From contig PLMU01000004.1 in NCBI GenBank assembly GCA_003142595.1, forward strand, positions 1 through 64,000: a stretch of 64,000 nt of DNA, read 5' to 3'. The notes beneath the pieces were generated by a model. It had not been told where the DNA came from, ran no database searches, and was given only the letters and a program-made list of their open reading frames with translations. Below, in pieces: positions 44,316 through 51,349 of the stretch. Both the position numbers and the translations under genes were made by a program. Numbering within the stretch: the stretch's first letter is position 1; every line of letters begins with the position of its first letter. This DNA comes from Phycisphaerales bacterium (GTDB taxonomy: Bacteria; Planctomycetota; Phycisphaerae; Sedimentisphaerales; UBA12454).

Positions 44316-45407
44316 ATGGTATCGGATACAAGTATTTTAAAAGACCGGATAAGAAATGTCAGGGCAAAACTTCAGTCCGAAAAAGCGGATGCCCTTATAG
44401 TAACAGTTGACTCGAATGTCTCGTATCTAAGCATGTTTACCGGCGACGACAGTTGGCTGATTTTAACAGCCGGGCAGGTTTTCCTTGTTACCGACAGCAG
44501 ATATACTCTCCAGGCAAAAAACCAGTGTCCCGCCTGCAAAATTTACCAGCGCAAAGGCTCGATGATTGATGCCGTTGCCGATATATTCAAAAAACTTCCC
44601 AAAATCAAAACGATTGCCGTCGAAGATAGAATCGAACTAGCAGTTTTTAAAATGCTGCGAAAAAAACTTCCCGCCCGCATTAAGCCTGTAAAAAATCTTG
44701 TCCAGTCCGTCAGGCAGATAAAAGACCCCTCTGAGATCGCTGCGATAAAAAAAGCGATTGATATTTCTCAAAAATCCCTTGCCAAAGTTCTGTCCAAAAT
44801 TCGCGTTGGTGTCAGCGAGAGCACTTTAGCCGCAATGCTCGATTTTGAAATGAAAAAAGCCGGCGCAAATCCCGCCTTTGAAACTATAGTTGCCTTCGGA
44901 AACAATTCCGCGATGCCGCATCATCGCCCGTCGGCCACTAAACTGAAAAAAGTTGATACTATTCTTTTTGATTTCGGCGCAAAATTTAATGGTTATTGTG
45001 CTGATTTAACAAGATGTTTTGCGACAGGGCGGGTAACTGATTTTTACGCCAAAGTTTACAAAACAGTTCTTGATGCGCAAACTGCCGCGATAAACATTTT
45101 AAAATCCGACATAAAAGCCAAAGCCGCCGATGCCGCCGCAAAAGAGATTATCAAAGCAGCGAAATTGCCTCCTTATGGCCACGGCCTCGGCCATGGCATA
45201 GGTTTGGATGTCCACGAACAGCCTGCCGTTTCTGTGATTTCAAAGGCTTCTTTGCAAGGCGGCAATGTAATTACTGTTGAACCGGCAATTTATCTCGATG
45301 GCAAATTCGGCGTAAGAATAGAGGATGATGTGCTGATTACCGAATCCGGCTGCGAAATTCTAACTTCTCTGCTCAAAAGCGATGAAGTCCCGTTGCTGAA
45401 ACTTTGA
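44316..45407 (+). CDS. Xaa-Pro aminopeptidase-like M24 metallopeptidase
   Basis: 363 residues. An N-terminal creatinase-like domain (ADALIVTVDSNVSYLSMFTGDDSW) precedes the pita-bread domain with FDFGAKFNGYCADLTR (two metal Asp ligands), HGLGHGIGLDVHEQP (His ligands) and VEPAIY and RIEDD near the end (Glu ligands). Cleaves N-terminal residues ahead of proline. Divergent from rhomboid; no clear ribosome site. Confidence 0.92.
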   Translation: MVSDTSILKDRIRNVRAKLQSEKADALIVTVDSNVSYLSMFTGDDSWLILTAGQVFLVTDSRYTLQAKNQCPACKIYQRKGSMIDAVADIFKKLPKIKTIAVEDRIELAVFKMLRKKLPARIKPVKNLVQSVRQIKDPSEIAAIKKAIDISQKSLAKVLSKIRVGVSESTLAAMLDFEMKKAGANPAFETIVAFGNNSAMPHHRPSATKLKKVDTILFDFGAKFNGYCADLTRCFATGRVTDFYAKVYKTVLDAQTAAINILKSDIKAKAADAAAKEIIKAAKLPPYGHGLGHGIGLDVHEQPAVSVISKASLQGGNVITVEPAIYLDGKFGVRIEDDVLITESGCEILTSLLKSDEVPLLKL

Positions 45408-45461: not shown

Positions 45462-45535
45462 CTTTGCTTATCTGAGCAAAAGCCGATAGTATTTTTCTAA
45501 ATCAATTTCGGAGCGGGCTTTGAGAGGTGCAAAAA

Positions 45536-46189
45536 ATGACTAAAATTATTTCTTACATTCATCTTTTGGCGTGTATAGGTTTGTCAATTTTCATGTTTTA
45601 TGTTGTTTTAATGACGGACCCCGAGCTTATAATGGTATTTTTTGCCGTGCTTGCAATAACTGCCAGTGGGATTTATTTATTTATAATCGGACGCAAGAGA
45701 CAACTGGAGGATATTAAGACCTCAAATGTAACTAAAATTATTTCTTACTTTCATCTTTTGGGTTGCTTCAGCTGGTCAATTTTCTTATTTTGGTCTTTTA
45801 TGGATGGGAGAATCAGTCCGAGGGATAATGTTGAGATATTTGTATTTTCTGCCCTATTTGCACCAACTGTTAGCGGGATTTATTTGTTCATAGTCCAGTC
45901 TGTAATCTGCAGACAATGTCTTGTTCGGCTTTGGAAAGTAAAAAAACTAACTATTCTCTGGACTGGCATTTTTGTTATCGTTGCTATGTGTCTTTTCCCA
46001 CCTTGGGTTGATAAATATGGCAAGATTGCGGGGTATGCCTTTCTGTTCTCTGACGGGGGATATCCTTTTAGCAAAAAAGCTCATATTGATTTTGTTCGCC
46101 TTATAATCCAATGCGTCATAGCGGGCGTAATTGCAGGAGCATTGCTTTACACTCTGAACGATAAAAAAGCTCAAAGGGACGGAAAATGA
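45536..46189 (+). CDS. Multi-pass membrane protein with internal duplication
   Basis: 217 residues. The ATG at 45536 has GAGAGGTG 7 bases upstream; a GTG at 45527 is part of that ribosome site. Six membrane helices. The first two units repeat each other: TKIISYIHLLACIG...SGIYLFI (about 2-50) and TKIISYFHLLGCFS...SGIYLFIV (about 66-123). The last third differs. No known family is recognised. Followed closely by another unrecognised gene; the pair looks like an accessory patch between conserved genes. Confidence 0.65.
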   Translation: MTKIISYIHLLACIGLSIFMFYVVLMTDPELIMVFFAVLAITASGIYLFIIGRKRQLEDIKTSNVTKIISYFHLLGCFSWSIFLFWSFMDGRISPRDNVEIFVFSALFAPTVSGIYLFIVQSVICRQCLVRLWKVKKLTILWTGIFVIVAMCLFPPWVDKYGKIAGYAFLFSDGGYPFSKKAHIDFVRLIIQCVIAGVIAGALLYTLNDKKAQRDGK

Positions 46190-46259
46190 AGCGGTGCGGT
46201 GATGTTAAGAAATGCCCTGAAACATTACAATGAACAAGATAAGCATGGTGAGGTAGGAC

Positions 46260-46964
46260 ATGGATAGGAAAGTTTGTGGTGAATTCCCCGAGGTTTGCTA
46301 CAAGGCGTTCGAGCACGAAGAGCACGCCAAACAATTCATAGATAACGGTACTTTTCGCATGGGCTGTCTTCGTTCCTATAGAGGAATTGAAGATGAATCT
46401 CGCCGTGATCAGACTGAAGGCTCTGGACATACAAAAGAACCCGGTATCGTGACCGTAGGTTGGGTTTCTCCAAATCCTGCAGAGAAAACTATCTGGACTG
46501 GAGAACAGGGTTTCCAAGAACATCACACTGAATACGGTAATGCAATATTTCTCTTTTGTGCGTGTTTGCCGGATGTAAACCTCGATCATATGAAAGATGA
46601 GTTCGGTAGATATATCGTTAAGGTCGATGATCCAAGAAAATTGGCAGAGGATATCAATGACTACCTTATTGGCAAGGGGCAGAGATTTCTAATCGAGGGC
46701 TGTAAGGTCGTTTATAACAAGGGAAAGAAGTTGGAAAAGAAACTTACAGACAATGAAAGATTGGATATGGCTTATAAGCAGAAACCAAAAAGTTTTAACC
46801 TCGAACATGAGTTTCGCATTGTTGCTATAAAATTCGGTGAGCCATGCACTGAGGAATGTAAATTCCTCAGTGGGCAATTTGAGCAGGTTGAGCCGAAGTG
46901 TAAATTTATCGAAGTGAACTTAGGGAGACAATTGGACTATCTCAGCTTTGTGACTCTTAAATGA
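46260..46964 (+). CDS. Unrecognised soluble protein, DUF2971-like in outline
   Basis: 234 residues, ribosome site GAGGTA. The opening YKAFEHEEHAKQFIDNGTFRMGCLRSYRGIEDESRRDQTEG follows the pattern of small uncharacterised proteins in defence and accessory islands (short strand, then a G.LR..R..EDE.R.D.EG motif, as in DUF2971). The rest is alpha/beta with FEHEF-like charged segments and several Cys. The comparison is by pattern only. Probably co-transcribed with the membrane gene 70 bases upstream. Confidence 0.6.
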   Translation: MDRKVCGEFPEVCYKAFEHEEHAKQFIDNGTFRMGCLRSYRGIEDESRRDQTEGSGHTKEPGIVTVGWVSPNPAEKTIWTGEQGFQEHHTEYGNAIFLFCACLPDVNLDHMKDEFGRYIVKVDDPRKLAEDINDYLIGKGQRFLIEGCKVVYNKGKKLEKKLTDNERLDMAYKQKPKSFNLEHEFRIVAIKFGEPCTEECKFLSGQFEQVEPKCKFIEVNLGRQLDYLSFVTLK

Positions 46965-47049
46965 ACTTTGAACCAATCAATCCGATGAACGGATGGTGTG
47001 AAATAAACTGTGTAAATGGCCAAGGCCTGTGACAGATTAAATGGTGTGG

Positions 47050-47077
47050 ATTGCTTCGCCCCAAAGGTGTTCGCAAT
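47050..47077. repeat. REP-like short hairpin element
   Basis: ATTGC and GCAAT frame a TTCGC-rich centre in the spacer between the unrecognised gene and ettA. It has the look of a widespread REP-type phrase, but only one copy is seen here. Confidence 0.4.
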
Positions 47078-47101
47078 GACAAGTTTTCAATAGAGCAAAA
47101 C

Positions 47102-48775
47102 CTATCTCAATTTTAGCTGTTTATATTTTCCGCGGCGATGGGCCAGGCGGTCGGGATTCTCGGCCTGTATCTTTTCCTCATAAGCGGCAAAATTGCCCAC
47201 AAACCACTGTGTTTTGCCATTGCCTTCAAAAACAAGCAAATGCGTACATATTCTATCGAGGAAAAATCTGTCGTGGCTGATTACCATCGCGCAACCTTGG
47301 AAATTTATTATCGACTGCTCAAGAATCCGCATAGTGCTGACGTCGAGGTCGTTTGTCGGCTCATCGAGCAGTAAAAGGTTTCCGCCGCGGCGGAGCATTT
47401 TGGCCAGATGGATTCTGTTTCGCTCGCCGCCTGAGCATTGGGAAACTATTTTCTGCTGTTGCGTGCCTGAGAAATTATATTTGGCCACATAGGCGCGTGA
47501 TGCGACAGAAACCCCGCCGACAACGATAGAATCCTTGCCATCGGAAATTTCCTCGAAGATTGTTTTGCTGTCATCGAGCGCATCGCGGTGCTGGTCAACA
47601 TAGCCTACTGAAACGGTTGCGCCGATTTCGATTTTGCCGCTATCGGGTTTTTCCTGGCCGGCTATCAGGTTGAAGAGCGTTGTTTTGCCGATGCCGTTTG
47701 GACCGATTACGCCGACAATTGCGTTTACGGGCAGTTCAAATGAGCAGTCGTCGATGAGCGGGCTATCGCCGAATTTTTTACAGACCCCGGCAAACGAAAT
47801 TACTTTATCGCCGAGCCGCTGGCCTGACGGGATTTGTATCAGTATTTCGTTTTGCCTGTCTTCGTCGGATTGGCCGACCAAATCGCCGTAAGCATTTATA
47901 CGTGCCTGGCTTTTCTTATTGCGTGCCCTGGCAGAGGTGTTAATCCATTCAAGTTCGCGGGCCAGAGTTTTCTGACGCTGCGATTCCCTCTTTTCTGTTA
48001 CGCGGAGAAGCTCGGCCTTTTGCTTTAACCATGACGAATAATTCCCCTCGAACGGCAGCCCTCTGCACTTATCGAGTTCGAGAATCCATTTTGTAATGTT
48101 GTCGAGAAAATACCGGTCGTGAGTTACGATAATTACTGTGCCGTGATATTCGCGGAGGGCCGTTTCGAGCCATTGGATAGTTTCAGCGTCAAGGTGGTTT
48201 GTCGGCTCGTCGAGCAGGAGCAAATCCGGTTTTTCCAGCAGGGCCATACACAGCGCAACTCGTCTTCGCTCACCGCCGGACAATCTGCCCACCGGCGTAT
48301 CATCGGGCGGCAGGACCATCGCGTCGGAAACAATATCAATGAGCCTGTCGGTTTCCCAGCCTTCGCAGGCATCGATTTTATCCTGATAAACGGCCAGTTC
48401 CTCGAGCAGTTTATTCATTTTCTCATCGGACTGCGGCTCGGCAAGCTGTTGGGAAATTTCGTTGAACCGCTCGACCATATCGAGCGTTGGCTTTATTGCG
48501 GTTAGAAGATTTTCCCTAACGGTCTTTTCCAGTTCAAGCTGCGGTTCCTGTGCGACGTATCGCAGTTTCATATTTGCGGCAAGTTTCGTCTCGCCCTGAA
48601 AATCTTTGTCTAACCCTGCCATTATTTTCAGCAGTGTGCTTTTGCCTGAGCCGTTTTCACCGATAACCCCGATTTTCGCGCCGTAAAAAAACGACAGCGA
48701 AATATTTTTTAGAACTTCCTGTTTGCCGAAGCTCTTGCTGACATCGTTCATTTCAAATATAAATTTTGGCGGCAT
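47102..48775 (-). CDS. ettA: ABC-F translation factor EttA
   Basis: 557 residues, the EttA length (about 555). Two ABC ATPase cassettes: Walker A GENGSGKST (39-47) with signature LSGGERRRVALC, and a second GPNGIGKTT with signature CSGGERNRIHLAKML. An arm/linker lies between them. It binds the ribosomal E site and throttles elongation when the ATP/ADP ratio is low. No membrane domain, as for all ABC-F proteins. The start is MPPKFIFEMNDVSK. Confidence 0.96.
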   Translation of the reverse strand: MPPKFIFEMNDVSKSFGKQEVLKNISLSFFYGAKIGVIGENGSGKSTLLKIMAGLDKDFQGETKLAANMKLRYVAQEPQLELEKTVRENLLTAIKPTLDMVERFNEISQQLAEPQSDEKMNKLLEELAVYQDKIDACEGWETDRLIDIVSDAMVLPPDDTPVGRLSGGERRRVALCMALLEKPDLLLLDEPTNHLDAETIQWLETALREYHGTVIIVTHDRYFLDNITKWILELDKCRGLPFEGNYSSWLKQKAELLRVTEKRESQRQKTLARELEWINTSARARNKKSQARINAYGDLVGQSDEDRQNEILIQIPSGQRLGDKVISFAGVCKKFGDSPLIDDCSFELPVNAIVGVIGPNGIGKTTLFNLIAGQEKPDSGKIEIGATVSVGYVDQHRDALDDSKTIFEEISDGKDSIVVGGVSVASRAYVAKYNFSGTQQQKIVSQCSGGERNRIHLAKMLRRGGNLLLLDEPTNDLDVSTMRILEQSIINFQGCAMVISHDRFFLDRICTHLLVFEGNGKTQWFVGNFAAYEEKIQAENPDRLAHRRGKYKQLKLR

Positions 48776-49027: not shown

Positions 49028-49141
49028 ATGCAAAGTTATTTTGAGACTCTCCAGCTATTTTTAATCCAGCGGTATTTTTGCGCAAATTATTCAAAGACAT
49101 CATCAAACATTAACAGTTTTGGGGAAAGAAGAAGAAAATGA
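49028..49141 (+). CDS. Small ORF with a ribosome site, upstream of the PEP-CTERM gene
   Basis: 37 codons starting 30 bases after the TATAAT box, with GGAGAAGGAAG upstream. Its TGA overlaps the ATG of the frame at 49138 (ATGA). The product is polar with no family match. It could be a leader peptide or a chance frame inside the 5' leader. Confidence 0.35.
   Translation: MQSYFETLQLFLIQRYFCANYSKTSSNINSFGERRRK
49077..49086. promoter_or_regulatory. Perfect palindrome TTTGCGCAAA
   Basis: The 10-base palindrome sits in the leader of the PEP-CTERM gene, 166 bases before the start at 49252, and extends to a 12-base identity with 17787-17798. Confidence 0.35.
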
Positions 49142-49251
49142 AAAAAGCAGAAATTACAATTTGTTTAGCGGTAGTAAAGAGTTTTGTAAAAGGCCAGGTT
49201 AGTGTCCTGCTCGTTGCTCGACGCCCCCGGCACAGCGACAAGGAGAATATC

Positions 49252-49764
49252 ATGAGGATGAATCGAGCAATCATGGCAATGGGTCTTATTTGTTTGCTTA
49301 CGTGTGTACACCAAGTTGACGCCAGTACGGTGGTGGCATGGGGAGATAACAGATGGGGGCAGGTTTCCAACGCGCCGACGGGGACGGGGTTCACCGCTAT
49401 TGCGGCCGGGGACGCTACCGTTTATGCTCTTAGAGCCAATGGGTCTATCGTGGCATGGGGAGAAAACTGGGATGGGGAGGTTTCCAACGCACCGACAGGG
49501 ACGGGATTCACCGCTATTGCAGGCGGGATGTTTAACGGCTATGCCCTTAGAGCCAATGGGTCTATCGTGGCATGGGGAGGTTCCGAATTCGGAAATGTTT
49601 CCAACGCACCGACAGGGACGGGGTTCACCGCTATTGCGGGCGGGGGTGCTACCACCGGCTATGCCCTTTCGCCCGTGCCCGAACCCGCCACGCTTTTACT
49701 GCTCGGCTTTGGCGGATTAACCCTTCGACTCCGCCCAGGACAGGTTTTGGGAAAAATAAAATAA
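49252..49764 (+). CDS. PEP-CTERM exported protein with RCC1-like repeats
   Basis: 170 residues from the ATG at 49252, which has AAGGAG 7 bases upstream. An upstream in-frame ATG at 49138 lacks the signal peptide context. Signal peptide: basic start, hydrophobic core LICLLTCV, cleavage around VDAS. Three 39-residue repeats follow (VVAWGDN..., VSNAPTGTGFTAIAAG..., YALRANGSI), resembling RCC1/beta-propeller blades. The C-terminus has the sorting tag VPEPATLLLL and LTLRLR. A normal tag ends soon after; here ten extra residues (RPGQVLGKIK) follow. Such proteins are cut and anchored by exosortase in species with extracellular matrix. Confidence 0.82.
   Translation: MRMNRAIMAMGLICLLTCVHQVDASTVVAWGDNRWGQVSNAPTGTGFTAIAAGDATVYALRANGSIVAWGENWDGEVSNAPTGTGFTAIAGGMFNGYALRANGSIVAWGGSEFGNVSNAPTGTGFTAIAGGGATTGYALSPVPEPATLLLLGFGGLTLRLRPGQVLGKIK
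49333..49670 (+). repeat. 117-bp tandem repeats within the PEP-CTERM gene
   Basis: Units start at 49333, 49450 and 49567, an exact 117-base period, and each opens with GTGGCATGGGGA. They encode the three RCC1-like repeats and are highly alike at DNA level, so copy number may vary by slippage or unequal exchange. Confidence 0.85.
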
Positions 49765-49785: not shown

Positions 49786-51090
49786 TTATTTTTTGCCGTA
49801 TATTTTCGTCAATTCTTTATTTATTCTCAAACTGCACCAATCTTTGCCGCACATTGTGCAGAAATCGTCATTCGTACCGGCCTTGCCGCTCTTGGCGCAG
49901 GCCTGTTCGTGAAATTTTTTCGCGGTTTTCGGGTCCAGCGAAAGGGCTATATGATTTTTCCAATCAAAACTTGCCCTGGCGATACTTAATCTTTTGTCTC
50001 TGTCTGCGGAATTTAAAAATCCTCTTGCTACATCTGCTGCGTGAGCTGCGATTTTCGCCGCGACAACGCCTTGCCTTACATCTTCAACATCCGGCAGGCC
50101 CAAATGCTCCTTCGGCGTAACATAGCATAAAAACGATGCGCCCCAGTATCCTGCCGCTGTTCCGCCTATTGCGCTTGTTATATGGTCGTATCCCGGCGCG
50201 ATATCCGTTACCAGCGGCCCCAGCACATAAAACGGCGCATTATGACAGTATTTCTGCTGGAGTTTCATATTTTTTTCTATCTGGTTAAATGGAATATGCC
50301 CCGGGCCTTCCACCATAACCTGGCAATTTTTTTCTTTCGCCCGCAAAACAAGTTCGCCCAGCGTTTTCAGCTCTGCGATTTGCGCTTTATCTGTCGCGTC
50401 TGCGATACATCCCGGCCGAAGTCCGTCCCCAAGTGAAAAGCAAACGTCATATTCTGCCATAATGTCGCAGATATCGTCGAACAATTCATAAAATGGATTT
50501 TGCTTATTTTTCAGTGTCATCCATTTTGCTATTAGCGCTCCGCCTCTGCTTACGATTCCGCAAACTCTTTTTACGGCTGCAGGCAGATATTCTTTAAGTA
50601 CGCCCGCGTGAATGGTGAAGAAATCGACGCCTTGTTTTGCCTGTTTTTCAATTGTTTCGAGGATTATTTTGGGATTTATATCTTCGACATCTCTGCCGAT
50701 TATCATTTCATAAACAGGAACAGTTCCGAACGCCACAGGGCAGTTATCGATAATTTCTGCGCGGATTTTGTCGAGGTTTCCGCCGGTGCTCAAGTCCATC
50801 ATGGCATCGGCGCCGGCATCAAGAGCCGCGGCAAGTTTTTTAAGCTCGTTTTTAACTGATGAGCTTGCGCTGCTTGTTCCGATATTGGCGTTGACTTTTA
50901 TGCTTACTGCTCGGCCGATTCCGATTGGCTTTAGATTATTTTTCAGATGTATCTTATTTGCAGGTATGACGAGTTTTCCCGCGGCGATTTCTTTGCGGAC
51001 AATCTCCGGCCTGATTCCCTCATTTTTTGCGACGATTTTCATTTCTTTCGTAATTTTGCCGTCGCGAGCCGATTTAATTTGTGTCGTCAT
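49786..51090 (-). CDS. thiC: Phosphomethylpyrimidine synthase (thiamine synthesis)
   Basis: 434 residues, the short ThiC form without the extra N-terminal domain of E. coli. Radical SAM enzyme converting AIR to HMP-P. Its cluster-binding motif is C-terminal: C411, C414 and C419 (CTMCGKDWC). Also KVNANIGTS, MDLSTGG, TIHAGVL, SRGG and EGPGHIPF. Controlled by a TPP riboswitch and terminator upstream. Convergent with the PEP-CTERM gene, about 20 bases apart. Confidence 0.97.
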   Translation of the reverse strand: MTTQIKSARDGKITKEMKIVAKNEGIRPEIVRKEIAAGKLVIPANKIHLKNNLKPIGIGRAVSIKVNANIGTSSASSSVKNELKKLAAALDAGADAMMDLSTGGNLDKIRAEIIDNCPVAFGTVPVYEMIIGRDVEDINPKIILETIEKQAKQGVDFFTIHAGVLKEYLPAAVKRVCGIVSRGGALIAKWMTLKNKQNPFYELFDDICDIMAEYDVCFSLGDGLRPGCIADATDKAQIAELKTLGELVLRAKEKNCQVMVEGPGHIPFNQIEKNMKLQQKYCHNAPFYVLGPLVTDIAPGYDHITSAIGGTAAGYWGASFLCYVTPKEHLGLPDVEDVRQGVVAAKIAAHAADVARGFLNSADRDKRLSIARASFDWKNHIALSLDPKTAKKFHEQACAKSGKAGTNDDFCTMCGKDWCSLRINKELTKIYGKK

Positions 51091-51135: not shown

Positions 51136-51161
51136 AAAAATCTTTTTTATATCGCTTCCTA

Positions 51162-51239
51162 CGCAGGCATTCCCATAAAGGGATAATCCTGTTCAGGTTC
51201 AAAGGGTATTTTCTCAGGCCTTTATTAGCCACCCCTGCG
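51162..51239 (-). ncRNA. TPP riboswitch (THI box) upstream of thiC
   Basis: On the reverse strand the P1 stem CGCAGG/CCTGCG closes the element at 51234-51239 and 51162-51167. Inside are the invariant CTGAGA (51212-51217) and ACCCTTTGAACCTGA, with the second arm ending in ATCCC and GGGAATGCC. This is the normal TPP aptamer. A terminator hairpin follows at 51107-51135. Confidence 0.93.
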
Positions 51240-51349
51240 AAAATAAGTATAAACCTGTATATTAAGCCGGTCAAGAGTAAATATATGTTGCAATTTTATA
51301 TAACTTCTGGCATATTCCTGACTTTTGCAGTTTTGGAGGTATTTCTTAG

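Follow-up and report, generated by a model that had tools for sequence, protein, structure and literature searches.

The closest described setting for accessory genes of the kind considered here is the cos-proximal interval between gpA and gpQ of P2-like phages. In the passages that Rousset et al. 2022 (PMC9122126) devote to it, this interval is a hotspot of anti-phage systems; old and tin of phage P2 sit in it, and several antiviral systems found there have been tested. The same passages also mention non-defence cargo in the interval (partition genes; a toxin in ~2%) and describe transmembrane proteins as believed suicide effectors. A second point of comparison is the protein family DUF2971 (PF11185), a name for which open full text yielded one paper (PMC5552945).

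We analysed two adjacent genes, gene 1 and gene 2, in a 64,000-nucleotide stretch of DNA, here called the window, from a planctomycete genome of 2,278,388 bases (~2.28 Mb). Relatives of gene 2 resemble the accessory genes of the gpA-gpQ interval (old, tin and a DUF4238 single gene) in that they lie in the same interval and are mostly single genes, whereas gene 2 of the window is itself chromosomal, has chromosomal genes as neighbours and lies outside the hotspot. The locus likewise resembles the small defence modules that combine a membrane protein with a soluble protein, in that the gene for a soluble accessory protein is immediately preceded by a membrane gene. It differs from them in that the pairing is not conserved and neither protein matches a defence model.

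Our main reading, to which we give a probability of about 0.5, is that gene 2 is a horizontally spread single-gene effector in phage competition and that gene 1 is an incidental neighbour. The gene 2 product would be a soluble, probably enzymatic single-protein effector in conflicts between mobile elements. It would protect the host or a resident element against incoming phages, and the gene would move among genomes and elements through the advantage that it gives its carrier in competition with other phages. The features of the locus are collected in Table 1.

Table 1. Positions of the genes, gene modules and palindrome at the locus, in window coordinates.
Feature	Position	Strand	Evidence or remark
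Left anchor: M24 metallopeptidase with creatinase-type N-terminal domain	44316-45407	+	PF00557 E 4.4e-61, PF01321 E 2.6e-21
Gene 1: ~217-aa membrane protein, two tandem hairpin modules and a C-terminal module	45536-46189	+	
Gene 1, first hairpin copy	45536-45688	+	residues 4-54 of the 220-aa frame, internal alignment
Gene 1, second hairpin copy	45728-45895	+	residues 68-123; internal alignment, DNA repeat families D1 and D2
Gene 1, C-terminal membrane module	45911-46186	+	WTGIF..MCLFPPW..GYAFLF..ID..RLI.Q pattern
Gene 2: 234-aa soluble protein, phrog_13198 family	46260-46964	+	PHROGs v4, E 1.6e-14, residues 5-188 on profile positions 13-200 of 230
Short palindrome, taken as the REP-like hairpin of the earlier note	47048-47080	+	single copy
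Right anchor: ABC-F ATPase, transcribed towards the patch	47102-48775	-	PF00005 E 1.1e-53, PF12848 E 1.3e-9

Turnover at the site between the M24 and ABC-F genes

An earlier note on this DNA had described genes 1 and 2 as an accessory patch of two unrecognised genes between conserved genes. We verified that both open reading frames exist. They lie on the same strand, separated by a 70-bp gap, between the convergent M24 peptidase and ABC-F genes, and this tandem arrangement allows co-expression. The flanking genes have ordinary functions and are conserved, as had been claimed: the M24 peptidase gene was found in 11 of the 13 genomes of the family (the window's own counted), and a close copy of the ABC-F gene (at least 84% identity) in 9 of the 13, with a relative of any kind at E<=1e-80 in 12. 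The GC content is 0.374 in gene 1 and 0.42 in gene 2, and 0.445 over the whole window.

The M24 and ABC-F genes are adjacent on one contig in seven of the 13 family genomes, the window's included, and we compared the coordinates of the site among these seven. The gap between the two genes is 1694 bp in the window and, in the relatives, 1954 bp (G006), 1266 bp (G009), 1184 bp (G007), 1138 bp (G012), 471 bp (G011) and 81 bp (G008). Its content is different each time: two ORFs without known function in G006, one such ORF in G012, an aldo/keto reductase in G009, a DeoC/LacD-family aldolase in G007 and, judged by eye, a lipoprotein-like ORF in G011, while in G008 the site is near-empty. Comparison of the window insert with the inserts of the other six genomes gave no blastn match at E<=0.01. 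Gene 2 had no relative in the other 12 family genomes, and gene 1 had weak matches in G012 and G009, on contigs other than those of the M24/ABC-F site. These data mark the patch as a place where inserts vary, bounded by two conserved genes that converge on it. The presence/absence comparison that had been proposed in the earlier note was thereby run, and the pair is not conserved at this site in all relatives. The description of the patch as accessory holds, both from the turnover at the site and from the occurrence of the gene 2 family on phages, prophages and small plasmids, in part at a known antiviral hotspot (see below).

The presence of metabolic cargo (the aldo/keto reductase and the aldolase) at the same site indicates that the site does not select for defence; it accepts inserts, defence or other. 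The same cargo would fit a neutral or metabolic passenger role for gene 2, in a gap between convergent genes that tolerates any insert. We consider this improbable. The gene 2 family is maintained on phages and on plasmids of 2.5-5 kb from different phyla, and its D, C, Y, E and R residues do not vary, which argues for a selected function that is useful to mobile elements.

Four of the ORFs inserted at the M24/ABC-F site in relatives (L045:416-1093 and L045:1225-1770 of G006, L044:536-1264 of G012, L048:177-599 of G011) matched neither Pfam nor PADLOC at E<=0.01. These are possibly further unrecognised accessory genes. A resemblance of one of the two G006 proteins to DNA glycosylases was considered; Pfam gave no credible match and the idea was dropped.

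The patch had also been said to lie next to a REP-like hairpin. REP elements are expected in many dispersed copies, and a search of the 2,278,388 bases for exact copies of the palindrome listed in Table 1 found the pattern once. Terminator-like hairpins in the patch were no commoner than in shuffled sequence (2 found, against a mean of 1.7 in shuffles). On the strength of the single exact copy, we have abandoned the assignment of 47048-47080 as a REP element.

Beyond the ABC-F gene, a TPP riboswitch (Rfam RF00059, 61.3 bits) lies at 51139-51246 on the minus strand, just upstream of an ORF at 49786-51090 on the same strand which we take to be ThiC-like; this is an ordinary arrangement. The plus strand at 49138-49764 encodes an RCC1-repeat protein (PF13540, E 4.2e-9) with a terminal PEP-CTERM motif (PF07589, E 3e-4), which is probably exported.

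Gene 1 and its relation to gene 2

The reading frame of gene 1 is open from a GTG at 45527, which gives a frame of 220 aa. Since the ATG at 45536 is preceded by GAGAGG, a stretch resembling a ribosome-binding site, gene 1 probably starts at this ATG, as first annotated. The earlier note had called the product a membrane protein made of duplicated halves. The duplication was confirmed: local alignment of the halves scored 118, where the best of 1,000 shuffles reached 47, and the repeat is visible in the DNA with 77-79% identity over 60-68 nt. That description overlooked a third module at the C-terminus. No Pfam family matched gene 1 above the cut-off, and neither NCBIfam nor PADLOC gave a match at E<=1.

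The modules of gene 1 also occur apart from one another. Using the module alignment A10 as query, the C-terminal module was found in 35 of 161 genomes of the order at E<=1e-3. It stands alone in open frames of 91-116 aa in three loci (L018, L003, L014) and is fused after other N-terminal regions in two (L002, L016), and a single hairpin makes up a 103-aa open frame in G075 (L010). The closest relative with the full architecture is a 261-aa protein of G272 (L008). The ORF that follows it there (158 aa from an internal start) is not gene 2 and had no Pfam or PADLOC match. Gene 1 looks like a mosaic of membrane modules typical of the lineage, and is probably an independent protein assembled from them.

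The note had further suggested that the membrane protein and the soluble protein form a small defence or toxin module. In such a module the two genes would be co-transcribed, gene 2 would sense or act in the cytoplasm and gene 1 would be the membrane effector or the antidote. The common strand and the 70-bp gap fit this, as do the unrelated same-strand neighbours with a TM-like segment that adjoin family genes in L061, L067, L085, L093 and L119, and the belief, in the part of PMC9122126 cited above, that transmembrane proteins act as suicide effectors. If the module were real, the two genes should travel together. Among the genomes searched, the pair occurs in the window genome only. No tblastn match to gene 1 at E<=1 was found in 22 other loci of the gene 2 family plus two wider stretches (24 stretches, 205,825 bases). 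Conversely, an HMM of the gene 2 family found no relative at E<=0.1 in 26 loci with gene 1 modules (some of them overlapping), and the same HMM recovered the window's own gene 2. The wide occurrence of the C-terminal module of gene 1 in the order also speaks against a dedicated partner.

We also surveyed the neighbours of family genes at 23 hand-picked loci, using crude ORF calls; the set excluded the near-identical loci L082, L083, L086-L090, L092 and L094 as well as two distant ones, L064 and L065. At 10 of the 23 loci no same-strand ORF lies within 150 bp of the family gene. A TM-like segment was present in 6 of the 17 close same-strand neighbours, gene 1 among them, compared with 33 of the 170 ORFs of the loci, a background that includes the 17 (P 0.094, binomial; 0.083, Fisher). 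Membrane neighbours of the gene 2 family are thus not clearly above background; there is a mild tendency at most, and a fixed partnership was not seen. Neither protein has a PADLOC match. Because genes 1 and 2 do not co-occur outside the window genome among those searched, we rejected them as a conserved pair, and we regard a two-gene defence or toxin module as quite improbable. In our preferred reading, gene 1 is probably independent of gene 2 and not a required partner.

The gene 2 family and its kinship to DUF2971

Gene 2 belongs to phrog_13198 (Table 1), which has no functional annotation in PHROGs, and a PHROG scan placed its relatives L056, L059, L061, L080, L085 and L086 in the same family. 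Gene 2 itself had no Pfam, NCBIfam or PADLOC match at E<=1, and 15 family members including gene 2 had no PADLOC match at E<=0.1. The few Pfam and NCBIfam rows obtained with single members were chance-like, and no function was taken from them. A search of open full text, with subscription papers and supplements outside its reach, found no paper that names phrog_13198.

The distribution of gene 2 is sporadic. With the window's own genome counted, it was found in 1 of 13 family genomes; a protein search of class genomes gave 3 of 298, and the PHROG model 10 of 397. In their best segments, three relatives from named records share 52-72% identity with gene 2, and the surroundings of the three differ: the neighbours, judged by eye, are a dihydroorotate-dehydrogenase-like ORF, an ArfB-like ORF and an integrase-like ORF, the last confirmed by Pfam (PF00589, E 2e-20). 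When gene 2 and its flanks were compared by blastn with four planctomycete relatives, DNA similarity was essentially confined to the ORF, and a shared mobile unit larger than the gene 2 ORF was rejected on this basis. In a quick tree, which has long branches and was used for this grouping only, gene 2 falls within a five-row planctomycete clade (SH-aLRT 99). Its identity to the members of phrog_13198 on phages, prophages and plasmids is only 16-26%, and it differs from them, by eye, in a longer C-terminal tail. Together with the locations described below, this makes it most likely that gene 2 is cargo, a gene of phrog_13198 that spreads horizontally and usually stands alone.

Two neighbours of relatives were observed in passing. 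The phage-integrase-type ORF at L006:2273-2731, downstream of a gene 2 relative and found at the same place in L058, encodes 152 aa (PF00589 profile positions 27-169), which is short for a complete integrase. At L066:349-1398 a DUF4062 protein (E 6e-18) is encoded 39 bp upstream of a distant relative of gene 2.

Five residues, D50, C100, Y152, E184 and R186, are invariant in all 24 rows of the family alignment, which includes near-copies (hhalign counted 20 rows) and has L064 and L065 outside it. E53 is present in 22 of the 24 rows, and the other two have gaps there. The five invariant residues were also found in a separate 9-row alignment that includes L066 and L068. The conservation of acidic, Tyr and Arg residues suggests catalysis, and D50, E53, Y152, E184 and R186 could together build the active site.

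The earlier note had called gene 2 DUF2971-like. Taken as membership, this failed: no Pfam match to DUF2971 was found at E<=1 for gene 2, nor for any of the 15 family members including it. Taken as remote kinship, it stood. We collected 24 DUF2971 loci of the phylum, 19 of which gave an ORF and 16 of which were kept after filtering, and aligned these 16 proteins with the 24 family rows by hhalign. The local alignment had a probability of 90.7%, a P of 1.3e-6 and a score of 49.8; none of 200 column shuffles scored as high (maximum 19.3), and the reversed alignment scored 11.4. In global mode the score was 45.1, a value equalled or exceeded by 1 of 200 shuffles. A previous profile comparison with a 2-row DUF2971 alignment had given no match.

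The motifs of the two families were compared along these alignments. Their order is the same by eye, with a YKY-like start, D, a C or S after a strand, V.Y and E-x-R. All 16 DUF2971 rows have N-D, Y, K, E-x-E and R, and nearly all have W-x-H-Y (W in 15, H in 13 and Y in 16 of the 16). In the gene 2 family D, Y and E-x-R are retained, the N of N-D-P is missing, and W-x-H-Y is absent from the phrog_13198 rows. Where DUF2971 has E-x-E-W-R the window protein has E-x-E-F-R, and most of the other rows aligned carry D or Q in place of this first E. On these sequence grounds we read the gene 2 family as a divergent sister of DUF2971 and not as a member of it.

An AlphaFold2 prediction of gene 2 from four sequences had a mean pLDDT of 31.1. 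With 14 sequences the mean pLDDT rose to 68.1 (pTM 0.71), giving a confident core, with 76 of the 234 residues below 50. This model had no Foldseek match at E<=0.001 in PDB or BFVD, and its best VIA-align row had a Z of 4.1 over 70 residues. Sequence searches of the PDB returned no rows for the window protein and chance-level rows only for a 9-row profile. Given the lack of a structural match at the threshold and the best Z of 4.1, we claim no fold for gene 2, known or new. Identities as an ADP-ribosyltransferase or as a nuclease were considered; they found no support and were set aside.

Relatives of gene 2 on plasmids, phages and at the P2-like hotspot

Used directly as query, the window protein had no match in the plasmid or phage collections, and L061 as query had none in plasmids. 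In viral contigs, none of the queries A1, the window protein, L061 and A6 gave a confirmed relative. The link to plasmids and phages was made through an intermediate, L059, a class relative of gene 2 that belongs to the same PHROG (E 6.8e-19). With L059 as query, 15 of 72,556 plasmid records and 11 of 50,697 phage records matched. All 11 are Klebsiella phages, and 10 of these records, having one length and position, are apparent copies.

The plasmids that carry a family gene include minimal ones, on which it lies alongside replication genes. A Klebsiella plasmid of 2,509 bp has the gene 2 relative as the largest of the three genes listed in a gene table that may be incomplete; further small plasmids with a family gene come from Psychrobacter (4.4 kb) and Acinetobacter (5.3 kb). 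The stretch of K. pneumoniae pVA126-339 around the relative also contains a recombinase gene and, 3 kb on, a phage tail gene. In Klebsiella phage 1 LV-2017 the relative is unannotated and lies, in reversed orientation, between the genes for a lytic enzyme and the terminase small subunit.

Some of these neighbourhoods would suit another selfish role for gene 2, such as counter-defence of an anti-restriction-like kind, maintenance of a plasmid or prophage, or a lysogenic conversion unrelated to phage resistance. Such a role is consistent with the minimal plasmids on which the relatives accompany replication genes, with the ArdC-like gene that adjoins the relative in L059, and with the ArdA and toxin-antitoxin genes near the relative on an Acinetobacter plasmid. 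The Klebsiella phage points the other way, as an orientation opposite to the late genes would suit expression in the lysogen, and so does the location of the E. coli relatives described next. We regard another selfish role as rather unlikely, without being far-fetched.

Each of the seven P2-like viral contigs that we fetched (L080-L085, L093) carries the family gene between the A and portal genes; in L093 several other genes also lie within this interval. The A and portal genes were identified by PHROGs 91 and 68 in L080, L081, L084 and L093, and PHROG scans of both were also made for L119; the portal of L085, and L082 and L083, were checked by tblastn with L081 proteins. Phage and plasmid collections can show mobile relatives only, and E. 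coli chromosomes are a less biased sample. There, the L081 gene as DNA query had matches in 3 of 5,426 genomes, and the L086 member as DNA query had none.

All three E. coli copies lie between the replication endonuclease and portal genes, that is, where P2 has old and tin and where, in the passages of PMC9122126 on this interval, several antiviral systems have been tested. The family gene is nearly identical in two of the three genomes. The RM8082 member lies at NZ_CP043825.1 1008302-1009027, the portal gene of ZH142 is interrupted by IS1, and the EC-1639 copy, whose DNA match covers half of the query only, encodes a clear member of the family. Since relatives are thus available ready-made in P2-like prophages of E. 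coli, at a proven antiviral hotspot, a plaque assay could decide the function.

A more far-reaching version of our preferred reading, that of gene 2 as a single-gene effector, would make phrog_13198 as a whole an unrecognised single-gene anti-phage system, common to planctomycetes, to P2-like and other prophages of enterobacteria and to minimal plasmids. Such a system would be catalytic, a sister of DUF2971 and without a recognised solved relative. We advance this tentatively, as possible and not as probable. If it is true, DUF2971 itself would come under suspicion as a family of enzymes acting in conflicts of phage and host. The profile link would extend whatever function gene 2 has to DUF2971, a name that is scarce in open full text. 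An anonymous planctomycete ORF thereby becomes a testable candidate.

Membrane proteins were also seen beside family genes at the hotspot. In two of the P2-like contigs, unrelated membrane proteins follow the gene 2 relative (L093:5682-6704 and L085:5740-7731), and the L093 protein had weak matches to PADLOC PbeC (E 2.2e-4), perhaps through a coiled-coil part only. In E. coli EC-1639, the family gene in the A-Q hotspot is immediately preceded by the gene for a 243-aa phrog_3403 protein with one TM-like segment (L119:5128-5859).
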